Below are positions 56,305 through 64,000 of a stretch of 64,000 nucleotides of DNA, piece by piece. This DNA is from Sphingomonadales bacterium 32-65-25 (GTDB lineage: Bacteria; Pseudomonadota; Alphaproteobacteria; Sphingomonadales; Sphingomonadaceae), in NCBI GenBank assembly GCA_002280855.1, contig NCEU01000001.1, positions 248,001-312,000 of the forward strand, in the 5' to 3' direction. The notes under the pieces were generated by a model, which saw only the letters and a list, made by a program, of their open reading frames with translations, had not been told where the DNA came from and made no database searches. A program made the translations under genes and the position numbers. Position 1 is the stretch's first letter; the number at the start of each line of letters is the position of its first letter.

Positions 56305-56625
56305 TCAGTGCTGCGTGGCGGGCATGTGAACCTCAAGCCCGTCCAGCGCCGCCGAAGCCTTGATCTGGCACGCCAGCCGGCTGTTCGGCTGGGCGGTATC
56401 CGCCAGCTCGATCATCGAATCTTCCAGCTCGCTGCGTTCGCCGGTGAGCGCCTGCCATTCCGATGGAATATAGCAATGGCAAGTGGCGCAGGCGGCGTTG
56501 CCACCGCAATCGCCATCGATGCCCGGCACATTGTTCTGCACCGCGCCTTCCATCAGGTTTTCACCCTCAGGCACGTTGACTTCGTGGCGAGCACCAGTGT
56601 GCTCGACGTAAATGATCTTGACCAT
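56305..56625 (-). CDS. [2Fe-2S] ferredoxin (adrenodoxin/putidaredoxin type)
   Basis: A 106-residue electron carrier. Cluster ligands are in DCGGNAACATCH (C-x5-C-x2-C) and in LACQ, the adrenodoxin pattern. It is encoded 12 bases downstream of a CYP153-type P450 and is almost certainly its electron donor. Known CYP153 systems also need a ferredoxin reductase, which is usually nearby; none is in the window. A terminator follows it directly, so the pair is the whole 3' part of the transcript. Confidence 0.94.
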   Translation of the reverse strand: MVKIIYVEHTGARHEVNVPEGENLMEGAVQNNVPGIDGDCGGNAACATCHCYIPSEWQALTGERSELEDSMIELADTAQPNSRLACQIKASAALDGLEVHMPATQH

Positions 56626-56637
56626 GAAACCCTCTGC

Positions 56638-57981
56638 TTAAGCCGGAATACGGACCATCATCGATTTGTAACCGCGCACGAAGGCACTTGGCACCCGCTC
56701 CGGCTCCTCCAGCACTTCAATGGTGTCGAAGCGCTTCAGGATTTCTTCCCACAGGATCTTCAGCTGCAGTTCGGCCAGGCGGTTGCCCACGCAGCGGTGG
56801 ATGCCGAAACCAAAGCTCATGTGCTGACGGGCGCGGGCGCGATCGATGATGAACTCATCCGGCCGGTCGAGAACCGTGTCATCACGATTGGCCGACGAAT
56901 ACCACATCACCACCTTGTCACCCTTGTGGATCAGTTGGCCGCCCAGCACCGTATCCTGCAGGGCGGTGCGGCGCATGTGGGCCAGCGGCGTCTGGTAACG
57001 GATGATTTCCGAAACCATGTTCTCCACCAGGTCATGATTGGCCTTGAGCTTGGCATATTCGCCCGGATTCTTGTTCAGGAAATACAGCCCGCCGGTAATC
57101 GAATTGCGGGTCGTATCGTTGCCGCCCACAATCAGCAGCACCAGATTGCCCATGAATTCCATCGGCGGCATGTTGCGGGTGGCGGGGTTATGCGCCAGCA
57201 TCGACACCAGATCGCCGGTCGGCTCGGCATTCACCCGCTCGTTCCAGAGCATGGTGAATTCCTGCAGCATGCCGAGCAGAATGCCCTGACGCTCTTCCTT
57301 GCCCGGGCTGCCCGGCAGTTCCGGATCAGAAGTGGACACATCCGACCAGTAGGTCAGCATGCGGCGGCGTTCCTGCGGCCAACCGAACAGGGTGGCCAGC
57401 ATGCGGCTGGTCAGTTCGATGGAAACCTTGTCCACCCAGTCAAACGCCTCGCCGCGCGGCAGGCTATCGAGGACTTCGCAGGTGCGGCTGCGGATCAGTT
57501 CTTCGTAACCGGCAAGATTCTGCCCCGAAACGATCGGGTTCACCGCCTTGCGCTGCACATCATGCTTGGGCTGATCCATGGCGATGAACATCGGCATGAT
57601 GAAATCCGAATCCATGTCGAATAGGGTGATCCCGCCCAGCATGGCTTCGGAACTGAACACCTGATGGTTGGTATCCACGGCCATCACATCGTTCCAGCGC
57701 GTCACGTTCCAGAAACCGCGGTGACGGTTGCTGTTGACATGCGTGAAGAAAATCGGGGCTTCCTCGCGCAGGCGACGGAAATAGACATGGTTTGTGTCCG
57801 TTTCCCACCACAGCGGATCGGCGATATCCACTTCTTCGAGCGGCGCAGAGGCCAGATAGGATTCCAGCGTCGCCTTGTCGTGGTTGGCAAATTCCGGCCG
57901 CACGCGCGGCGGCAGCGGCCAGCTCACACTGCCCTGCGGCAGCGATTGGGTGATCCGCGTGTCTTTCAGTTGCGTCGCCAT
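56638..57981 (-). CDS. Cytochrome P450 of the CYP153 type (alkane/fatty-acid terminal hydroxylase)
   Basis: A 447-residue soluble bacterial P450. The heme cysteine is in FGFGIHRCVGNRLAE (around residue 396), the I-helix oxygen motif is GGNDTTRNS (around 289), and the ExxR is in EIIRYQ. The stretches SEIIRYQTPLAHMRRTA, DKVVMWYSSANRDD, LPMFIAMDQPKHDVQRKAV-like and LWEEILKRFDTIEVL match what I know of CYP153 enzymes, which hydroxylate the terminal carbon of medium-chain alkanes and acids. The ATG has GGGGAGGACC upstream. Transcribed with the ferredoxin gene. Substrate not proven. Confidence 0.9.
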   Translation of the reverse strand: MATQLKDTRITQSLPQGSVSWPLPPRVRPEFANHDKATLESYLASAPLEEVDIADPLWWETDTNHVYFRRLREEAPIFFTHVNSNRHRGFWNVTRWNDVMAVDTNHQVFSSEAMLGGITLFDMDSDFIMPMFIAMDQPKHDVQRKAVNPIVSGQNLAGYEELIRSRTCEVLDSLPRGEAFDWVDKVSIELTSRMLATLFGWPQERRRMLTYWSDVSTSDPELPGSPGKEERQGILLGMLQEFTMLWNERVNAEPTGDLVSMLAHNPATRNMPPMEFMGNLVLLIVGGNDTTRNSITGGLYFLNKNPGEYAKLKANHDLVENMVSEIIRYQTPLAHMRRTALQDTVLGGQLIHKGDKVVMWYSSANRDDTVLDRPDEFIIDRARARQHMSFGFGIHRCVGNRLAELQLKILWEEILKRFDTIEVLEEPERVPSAFVRGYKSMMVRIPA

Positions 57982-61833: not shown

Positions 61834-62571
61834 TCAGGCCAGATAATCGTGCAGCACCTTGCCATAGGGCAGCGTCATGTCGGTGACGATGTGCAGTCCG
61901 CCCAGCTGCTCATGCACCGGCAGATCGGCCATCGGGCAGTTGACGGCCGGCACCATTTCCAGCCGAGCGCGCCCGGTCCAGGCACCCTTGACGACAATCT
62001 TGTCAAAGTTGATGCCAACCAGCTGGGCAATCGCCGGCGTGCCGTCGATGTCGGGGATCAGCTTCAGCGTCACCTGGGTGCGCTTGAGCATCGCCTCGAT
62101 CTCGCTGAGGTCGTTCGGGCTGCTGTGCTTGTAGACCATGGTGCCACTGGCCACTTTCTGGCCGGCATAGACCAGTTCGCCGGTGAGCGTGTCGCTCTCC
62201 GTGACCAGTTTGGGCTGGCCGAACTTCATCGGATAGCCCCAGATCTCGCGACCACCAGCCAGTGGCGGGCAGTTGTCGACATACATCTGGACGAGGAAGT
62301 TGCACTTCTCGCCATTCAGCGTGCAGGGAATGGTCTGCACGGCCGCCGAATAGGCGCCAAAGCCTTCGCCGTCGGGCAGATCAAGCCACTGCACCGACAC
62401 GATGTCGCCATCGGGCTGCAGCGGTTCAGGCAGCAGCTTGCGGATCATCGCCGGATCGCTGCGATACTGGATGATCATGTACTGGCGGTTGAAGAATTTA
62501 TACGGGCCCGTCGGATAGGTCGGGCTCTGCAGCGGCATCGAGCTGAGTTTAAGCACATCCTGCTTGTTCAT
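61834..62571 (-). CDS. Acetoacetate decarboxylase-family protein lacking the catalytic lysine
   Basis: A 245-residue member of the acetoacetate decarboxylase fold whose numbering fits the Clostridium acetobutylicum enzyme without gaps to the active site. The family Arg29 is kept (FNRQY), but the Schiff-base lysine Lys115 is Met115 (GYPMKFG), and Glu76 is Ala76 (GAYSAAVQ); the neighbouring Lys116 is kept. Decarboxylation by the known mechanism therefore looks impossible. All the rest of the fold (GREIWGYP, WTGRARLEM, the C-terminal YGKVLHDYL) is well conserved, so it is not a decaying gene. Thirteen bases separate it from an intact paralogue upstream. Confidence 0.9.
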   Translation of the reverse strand: MNKQDVLKLSSMPLQSPTYPTGPYKFFNRQYMIIQYRSDPAMIRKLLPEPLQPDGDIVSVQWLDLPDGEGFGAYSAAVQTIPCTLNGEKCNFLVQMYVDNCPPLAGGREIWGYPMKFGQPKLVTESDTLTGELVYAGQKVASGTMVYKHSSPNDLSEIEAMLKRTQVTLKLIPDIDGTPAIAQLVGINFDKIVVKGAWTGRARLEMVPAVNCPMADLPVHEQLGGLHIVTDMTLPYGKVLHDYLA

Positions 62572-62584
62572 GTCCTGTACCCCC

Positions 62585-63340
62585 TCAGCCCGCAGCGTCT
62601 TTGATGTAATCGAACAGCACGCGGCCGTGCGGCAGCGTCAGATCGGAAACGAAATGCTTGCCGCCAACGATGCGCAGGATCGGCAGATCGGCCACCGGCG
62701 CATTCACATGCGGGATCAGCTGCAGCCGGGCCGGGCTGACCCAGACACCCTTCACCGTGATGTTTTCAAGATTATAGGCAACGAGTTGGCAGATCTTCGG
62801 GCTGCCATCGACATCGGGGATGATCTTCAGGTTGCACGATGTCTTGGTCATGCCCTTGGCCTGGGCTTCGCAGCCGCCGGGCGCTTCCTGCCACTTGTAG
62901 GCCATGGTGCCCATCGCCACCGACTGACCGGCGTACGACAGAGTGCCAGTCAGCGTGTCGGAGGCAACCTCCAGCTTGGGCAGCGCATATTTCTTGGGGA
63001 AGCCCCAGATTTCGCGGCCACCATCGATGGGCGGCTGATCATCCAGATACATCTGGGCGGTATAGTTGATCGGTTCACCATTGAAGGTGCACGGGATCAC
63101 GATACCGCTTTCGGTGTAATCGCCAAAACCCGAGCTGTCGGGCATGCGGATCCATTCGTACAATACATGGTTTTCCGCATTCGGCACCAACGGTTCCGGA
63201 ACCGCGGCGCGCAGCAGCACCGGATCGGTTTCGTAGGTGATGATCATGAATTCGCGGTTGATGAAGCGATAGGGCCCCAGCGGATAGCTGGGTGCAACTG
63301 CCGGCATCGACGGCAGCTTCAAGATTTCTTCAGGTGTCAT
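62585..63340 (-). CDS. Acetoacetate decarboxylase family protein with intact active site
   Basis: A 251-residue acetoacetate-decarboxylase-fold protein. Its residues for catalysis are all present: Arg29 (INREF), Glu77 (YTESG), and the lysine pair Lys116-Lys117 (GFPKKYA) corresponding to Lys115-Lys116 of the clostridial enzyme. It could convert acetoacetate to acetone and CO2 or act on another beta-keto acid; some family members from sphingomonads do aldol chemistry instead. It lies between a diverged paralogue (downstream) and a patatin-like gene (upstream, 23 bases away), a setting often associated with ketone-body or polyhydroxybutyrate turnover. Confidence 0.88.
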   Translation of the reverse strand: MTPEEILKLPSMPAVAPSYPLGPYRFINREFMIITYETDPVLLRAAVPEPLVPNAENHVLYEWIRMPDSSGFGDYTESGIVIPCTFNGEPINYTAQMYLDDQPPIDGGREIWGFPKKYALPKLEVASDTLTGTLSYAGQSVAMGTMAYKWQEAPGGCEAQAKGMTKTSCNLKIIPDVDGSPKICQLVAYNLENITVKGVWVSPARLQLIPHVNAPVADLPILRIVGGKHFVSDLTLPHGRVLFDYIKDAAG

Positions 63341-63363: not shown

Positions 63364-64000
63364 TCAGAGAAAGGCGGATTTGACGTCGGTCGACGAGCGC
63401 ACGCCGACATCATCGAAATGTTCGTCCAGCCACTTGCTGGCGCTGGCGCGGCCCACGTCGCGCAGCGTCTTCATGAAACCCCAATCCGGGTTCAGCTTGC
63501 TGGTGACGCCCAGGCTGGTCATGTACTCTTCGTTCATGATCGAATGGATCAGCATACGGCGATGCTTTTCATCGTTCAGCTGGCCATCGTCGATCAGGTG
63601 GCTGACGAAGGCGATCGCCCGCATTTCACGCATCAGGCTCGAGTTGAAGCTGATTTCGTTGATGCGGTTCATGATGTCCTTGGCGGACTTGGGAATCTCG
63701 TTGCGATTGAGCGGGTTGATGTGAACGATCACCACATCGTTGGTCTCGCTGCCATAGATCAACGGGAAGATCGCCGGGTTGCCCATGTAGCCGCCGTCCC
63801 AATAAGCCTCACCTTCGATTTCGACGGTGTGGAACATGAAGGGCAGACAGCCCGAGGCCAGCACCTGATCGGGGCCAATCTCGTGGTTTTCGAACATGCG
63901 CACCTTGCCGGTGCGCACATTGGTGGCCGACAGGAACAGTTTGACCGGGCAGCCTTCGCGCAGCACGTTGAAATCAATCGAGCTTTCCAGCACCTTGCGG
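63364..64000 (-). CDS. Patatin-like phospholipase, C-terminal part (runs off the window)
   Basis: The last 211 codons of a patatin-like hydrolase whose start lies beyond base 64000; the frame is open to the window edge. The patatin aspartate of the Ser-Asp dyad is visible in YWDGGYMGNPA, and the strand before it reads LASGCLPFMFHTVEIEG. The C-terminal half, with IDDGQLNDEKHRRMLIHSI and LNPDWGFMKTLRDVGRASASKWLDEHFDDVG, is that of patatins carrying a DUF3734 domain. The nucleophile motif GxSxG is outside the window. It is 23 bases upstream of the decarboxylase pair and probably in the same transcript. Confidence 0.9.
   Translation of the reverse strand, partial: RKVLESSIDFNVLREGCPVKLFLSATNVRTGKVRMFENHEIGPDQVLASGCLPFMFHTVEIEGEAYWDGGYMGNPAIFPLIYGSETNDVVIVHINPLNRNEIPKSAKDIMNRINEISFNSSLMREMRAIAFVSHLIDDGQLNDEKHRRMLIHSIMNEEYMTSLGVTSKLNPDWGFMKTLRDVGRASASKWLDEHFDDVGVRSSTDVKSAFL

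Follow-up and report, generated by a model that had tools for sequence, protein, structure and literature searches.

Acetoacetate decarboxylase (ADC) is the standard example of a Schiff-base enzyme whose lysine is perturbed, and the locus described here raises the question of what a second, adjoining copy can be for when that lysine is missing from it. The two genes lie near one end of the window, the 64,000-nucleotide stretch of DNA that was analyzed, at the coordinates given by an earlier sequence-only reading, and are referred to as ADC1 and ADC2.

62585..63340, minus strand: ADC1, canonical acetoacetate decarboxylase, 251 aa; the upstream gene, transcribed first
62993..62995, minus strand: codon AAG of the ADC1 Schiff-base lysine (Lys116 by its own numbering)
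62572..62584, minus strand: 13-nt gap between the ADC1 stop and the ADC2 start, with a ribosome-binding-like GGGGG run
61834..62571, minus strand: ADC2, acetoacetate-decarboxylase paralogue with E61Q, E76A, and K115M, 245 aa; second in transcription
62389..62391, minus strand: ADC2 codon CAG, Gln61 at the site of Glu61
62344..62346, minus strand: ADC2 codon GCG, Ala76 at the site of Glu76
62227..62229, minus strand: ADC2 codon ATG, Met115 at the site of the Schiff-base Lys115
63364..64000, minus strand: 3' part of a patatin-like phospholipase gene (352 aa), which runs beyond the window edge (locus L055)

The patatin gene thus lies upstream of ADC1 and is followed, beyond the window, by a divergent gene for a short-chain dehydrogenase (SDR) resembling 3-hydroxybutyrate dehydrogenase. 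ADC1 and ADC2 are 50% identical and are the sole PF06314 genes of the 3.04-Mb genome. Both are full-length members of that family and score above the cut-offs of PF06314 and of NF002614, the NCBIfam model "acetoacetate decarboxylase" (246.3 and 346.2 bits for ADC1; 223.3 and 293.9 bits for ADC2). In the profile search PF06314 was the sole family matched at E ≤ 0.001, with no match to PF09844 (DUF2071). Elsewhere in the window (56305-57981, minus strand) a cytochrome P450 gene is followed by one for a 2Fe-2S ferredoxin, together an ordinary class I pair.

The catalytic segments of ADC1 (GREIWGFPKKYALPKL) and ADC2 (GREIWGYPMKFGQPKL) align without gaps to those of the solved decarboxylases 3bh2, 3bgt, and 3c8w. 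In clostridial numbering ADC1 has Arg29, Glu61, Glu76, Lys115, and Lys116 and keeps every catalytic residue tested (REEKK), with Arg29, Glu77, Lys116, and Lys117 of its own sequence corresponding to clostridial Arg29, Glu76, Lys115, and Lys116; ADC2 has Arg29, Gln61, Ala76, Met115, and Lys116. This alignment bears out the earlier assignment of Arg29, Glu77, and a Lys116-Lys117 pair to the upstream copy and of Met115 and Ala76 to the downstream one. The E61Q replacement had been overlooked, and it matters because with it the polar groups at positions 61, 76, and 115 are all gone, leaving Arg29 and Lys116. ADC1 should be a working decarboxylase, producing acetone and CO2 from acetoacetate.

A shifted alignment or a relocated lysine in ADC2 was considered and rejected: the alignment is ungapped, and among 44 distinct ADC2 sequences there is no new invariant lysine that could substitute for Lys115, the invariant lysines (Lys116, Lys148, and Lys170) being the same ones present in ADC1. 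It is very improbable that ADC2 is still a decarboxylase in which Lys116 or another lysine forms the imine. Lys116 is invariant in ADC2, as this would require, but three single-copy relatives have Arg in its place, and substitutions of Lys115 abolish the activity of the clostridial enzyme (PMC4520260). Because of that precedent, the lack of a new invariant lysine, and the loss of both glutamates, ADC2 should not decarboxylate acetoacetate, and the automatic NF002614 annotation that calls it a decarboxylase very probably misnames it.

ADC2 is not a local oddity of one genus, a possibility ruled out by its presence across Alpha- and Betaproteobacteria. When one genome per species was scanned with one peptide pattern that includes the M115 segment and five others, 43 loci encoding ADC2 at 57-100% identity were found; since one pattern spans that segment, the scan favors copies bearing M115. 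The carriers include Sandarakinorhabdus (apparently the genus of the window itself, as two loci, L013 and L042, are near-identical to that of the window), Blastomonas, Sphingomonas, other Alphaproteobacteria, and many Betaproteobacteria, although some species names of metagenome-assembled genomes (MAGs), for example "Bordetella parapertussis", are clearly nominal. No ADC2 was found in the plasmid collection, where the best match was below 60% identity. The scan loci and whole-genome searches together gave the 44 distinct ADC2 sequences, and all 44 carry R29-Q61-A76-M115-K116, which is more than chance would allow; the question whether Met115 and Ala76 are conserved in Sphingomonadales, posed by the sequence-only reading, is thus answered far beyond that order. 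In pattern-free protein searches covering 199 genomes of the family, 385 of the class, and 398 of the phylum, none of the loci read held an ADC2-like protein without R-Q-A-M-K, or an ADC2 in a genome without ADC1. Within this clade, ADCs that occur as a single copy retain Glu61, Glu76, and Lys115 without exception.

The loss of every catalytic group, together with an evolutionary rate somewhat higher than that of ADC1 in most comparisons, is what might be expected of a decaying duplicate with no selected function. This explanation is scarcely credible, and a pseudogene is contradicted outright: dN/dS lies between 0.01 and 0.19 wherever dS was usable (in most cases a little above the ADC1 values), which indicates purifying selection, the reading frames are intact at all loci, 80 of 244 columns are invariant, and the pocket substitutions are fixed. 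All three catalytic positions fall among the 14 columns at which ADC1 and ADC2 have each settled, completely or almost so, on a different residue (chance ∼1.5e-4), and at 15 columns ADC2 is fixed for a residue that is rare among single-copy ADCs.

The remainder of the pocket is retained. Positions 107-116 are invariant in ADC2, as are Phe26, Tyr74, Met96, and Tyr113, so that the hydrophobic lining is kept. With the pocket defined as ten positions (26, 74, 96, 98, and 113, from PMC4520260, and 29, 61, 76, 115, and 116), nine are invariant as compared with 80 of the 244 columns overall (P = 2e-4; P = 0.005 against columns conserved in ADC1). The predicted model of ADC2 has the ADC fold (Z = 23.5 to 3bgt at 40% identity), with a pLDDT of 80 and low values in the catalytic loop; the structural results rest on monomer models, and that of ADC1 was poor (pLDDT 63) and was left out. 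By these patterns of conservation, the ADC2 cavity is under constraint although the chemistry is gone.

Such constraint is what would be expected if ADC2 were a separate enzyme, the ADC cone having been reused for a reaction of the ADC1 pathway that needs no Schiff base, for example a hydration or dehydration, an isomerization, or some other conversion of a compound related to acetoacetate or hydroxybutyrate. Each catalytic position has been fixed to one new residue (Gln61, Ala76, Met115) rather than degenerating, the invariant loop 107-116, hydrophobic lining, and 15 ADC2-fixed columns fit a working site, and other chemistry is performed on this fold by the 4zbt aldolase-dehydratase, MppR, and Swit_4259. 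To our knowledge, however, the characterized ADC-fold relatives all retain the lysine. A family of the ADC clan without Lys115 does exist in DUF2071 (PMC4520260), but ADC2 has gained no new conserved charged catalytic residue, its replacements Gln, Ala, and Met being neutral, and a free-standing enzyme need not adjoin ADC1 in every genome. A lysine-independent enzyme of this kind is the main rival to a role for ADC2 as a partner of ADC1, a serious candidate that we nevertheless hold to be unlikely.

The adjacency is in fact without exception, every ADC2 locus having an adjoining ADC1. ADC1 lies immediately upstream of ADC2 on the same strand in 42 loci, with a median gap of 18 nt, and three loci have overlapping or abutting reading frames; at L051, which seems to be the same contig as G344/L149, the two genes are on opposite strands and are still neighbors. 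At one locus from a Burkholderiales MAG (L034:5258-6004) ADC1 itself carries Asn (AAT) in place of Lys115 and Val in place of Phe113, next to a normal ADC2, which is either a pair without the lysine at either site or an error of the MAG. The pair usually sits within a 3-hydroxybutyrate dehydrogenase/patatin operon: among the loci clustered, a patatin-like phospholipase was found in 39 and the SDR in 38, and both are present at nearly all pair loci with enough flank. A phasin-like gene is found near the pair in six betaproteobacterial loci (the SDR and phasin-like names were assigned by eye from sequence), and at L025, L028, and L035 the pair is flanked or followed by two patatin genes. The window genome also encodes PhaC and a two-gene CoA-transferase, so that acetoacetate, besides being consumed by ADC1, can probably be returned to acetoacetyl-CoA. 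The locus most likely serves hydroxybutyrate turnover.

In this setting ADC2 might instead be a stand-alone binding or sensing protein (a ligand sponge, a sensor, or a granule-associated protein) whose pocket would serve solely for binding a metabolite and that makes no contact with ADC1. An invariant Arg29 and hydrophobic lining from which the reactive groups have gone would suit such a protein, as would a hydroxybutyrate-turnover operon with an occasional phasin-like neighbor. It is an improbable explanation all the same, as no regulator or output domain is linked to ADC2 and the adjacency to ADC1, rather than to patatin or the dehydrogenase, would be left unexplained.

Photosynthetic reaction-centre genes (PF00124) were recorded in 24 of 43 genomes with ADC2 (L012-L054) versus 5 of 48 with an ADC and no ADC2 (Fisher 4e-6, with kinship ignored), and in 5 of the 28 further genomes from the family to which the window belongs. 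All nine sphingomonad carriers of ADC2 are phototrophs by this measure, as are several betaproteobacterial lineages, and others are not.

The history of the two genes also ties them to each other. ADC2 forms one clade (support 100/100) nested among alphaproteobacterial single-copy ADCs, the ADC1 partners form another (99/94 in one tree, 93/93 in a second), and the early branching of the two is similar; a tree with ADC1 and ADC2 as sisters is neither shown nor rejected (p-AU 0.44). Their distances correlate at 0.84, with a partial correlation of 0.70 after removal of the patatin and dehydrogenase distances that falls to 0.44 without the sphingomonads; none of 2000 permutations was as high. The patatin and dehydrogenase of the window are ∼50-60% identical to their betaproteobacterial counterparts as compared with 76-87% for ADC1, and the mean distances between sphingomonads and Betaproteobacteria are 0.75 for patatin, 0.62 for the dehydrogenase, 0.22 for ADC1, and 0.38 for ADC2. 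As the ADC genes are close across groups whose patatin and dehydrogenase are far apart, the pair has spread as one unit that joined or kept different neighbors; this is co-inheritance and no proof of contact.

A second pair, unrelated on the tree (97/93), was found in genome G492, where one copy has E76G and K115Q with Glu61 kept, has Ser77 and Gly78 replaced by Ala as in most ADC2 sequences, and adjoins a normal copy and a patatin gene. Although it is a single genome, it suggests that a pair of one active and one inactive ADC has evolved more than once. The tandem pair of G244, tried as a further lysine-less case, was rejected because the lysine is kept in both copies; these distant ADC-like genes (L147:6368-7959) lie in an acyl-CoA-dehydrogenase/ABC-transporter-like neighborhood.

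Collectively, the retention of both genes side by side in bacteria of distant groups suggests that the "dead" copy has its own job, probably that of a partner. Obligate adjacency points to a role with ADC1, and the pocket constraint indicates a use for the cavity. Both would be accounted for if ADC2 sat in a mixed oligomer and bound a metabolite there without turnover. ADCs, such as the clostridial enzyme, are homo-oligomers. The proposal, to which we assign a probability of about one-half, is that ADC2, as a paralogue that does not decarboxylate, assembles together with ADC1 and serves there as a prozyme-like or regulatory subunit, its pocket neutralized yet preserved. The neighboring dehydrogenase would make acetoacetate from 3-hydroxybutyrate, and ADC1, as an ordinary Schiff-base enzyme, would convert it to acetone and CO2. 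ADC2, a duplicate that would have lost the decarboxylase chemistry and kept the fold and the remainder of the pocket, would join ADC1 in a mixed oligomer, stabilizing or tuning it, and may bind a keto- or hydroxy-acid through Arg29 without turnover. The fixed R-Q-A-M-K set, the constant adjacency, the residual distance correlation, the paired clades with the sister tree unrejected, the second pair in G492, and the low dN/dS values all count in its favor. Against it, the invariant loop and the invariant Phe26, Tyr74, Met96, and Tyr113 exceed the needs of a purely structural partner, single-copy relatives of ADC1 evidently work alone, and ADC1 of the paired clade differs from single-copy ADCs by only three fixed residues (positions 54, 225, and 235), little sign of adaptation to a partner. 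The sequence-only reading had offered a partner or another activity for the lysine-less copy, and that core survived every test run; between the two, linkage favors the partner, and pocket conservation indicates a site that still does something.

In the open-access literature, to which the search was confined with subscription papers outside its scope, no description was found of an ADC paralogue or pseudoenzyme of the ADC2 kind. The closest relatives are the acetoacetate decarboxylases themselves (PF06314; 3bh2, 3bgt, and 3c8w, the last from Legionella), which share with ADC1 and ADC2 the fold, the GRE-W-YP-K segment, Arg29, and Lys116; Lys115, Glu76, and Glu61 are present in all single-copy relatives of the ADC2 clade, whereas ADC2 lacks all three. 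The aldolase-dehydratase of Streptomyces bingchenggensis (4zbo/4zbt/6eej), MppR (4jmc), and Swit_4259 (5upb) have the fold of ADC2 and are not acetoacetate decarboxylases, proof that the ADC scaffold takes on other chemistry. They are only 18-26% identical to ADC2, however, and 4zbt and 6eej were deposited as Schiff-base/covalent complexes, a chemistry not available to ADC2 at position 115. DUF2071 (PF09844, ADC clan) resembles ADC2 in having an ADC-like fold without Lys115 (PMC4520260), but it is a distant family that keeps Glu76, whereas ADC2 has lost Glu76 and is closely paralogous to true ADCs. ADC2, widespread, strictly conserved, devoid of the lysine and both glutamates, and in no case found apart from an adjoining canonical gene, is a natural experiment on the pocket without the chemistry.

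PatD of Legionella is patatin-like, and we know of no ADC2-like gene at the bdhA-patD locus there. That locus, which pairs PatD with a 3-hydroxybutyrate dehydrogenase and is needed for PHB breakdown according to a passage of PMC4549902 citing Aurass et al. 2009, has its dehydrogenase in common with the neighborhood of the window locus, which adds the ADC pair.

The trypanosomatid prozymes of AdoMetDC and deoxyhypusine synthase are, like ADC2, duplicates without key catalytic residues that are kept with an active copy (PMC3663545). ADC2 corresponds to them in being a selected duplicate lacking its catalytic residues and in its obligate co-occurrence with ADC1 (Asn115-bearing at L034). They differ in being eukaryotic, of unrelated fold, and not gene neighbors, and their activation was measured whereas the partner role of ADC2 is deduced. 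More tentative is the idea of a bacterial prozyme system, arisen at least twice, in which ADC2 within a mixed oligomer would sense a ketone-body metabolite and set the activity of ADC1; if true, it would let the cell decide whether its hydroxybutyrate store is burned or vented as acetone. The precedent for a partner mechanism is deoxyhypusine synthase, which is, as ADC, a catalytic-lysine enzyme; in trypanosomatids it is activated 3000-fold by its catalytically dead paralogue (PMC3663545).
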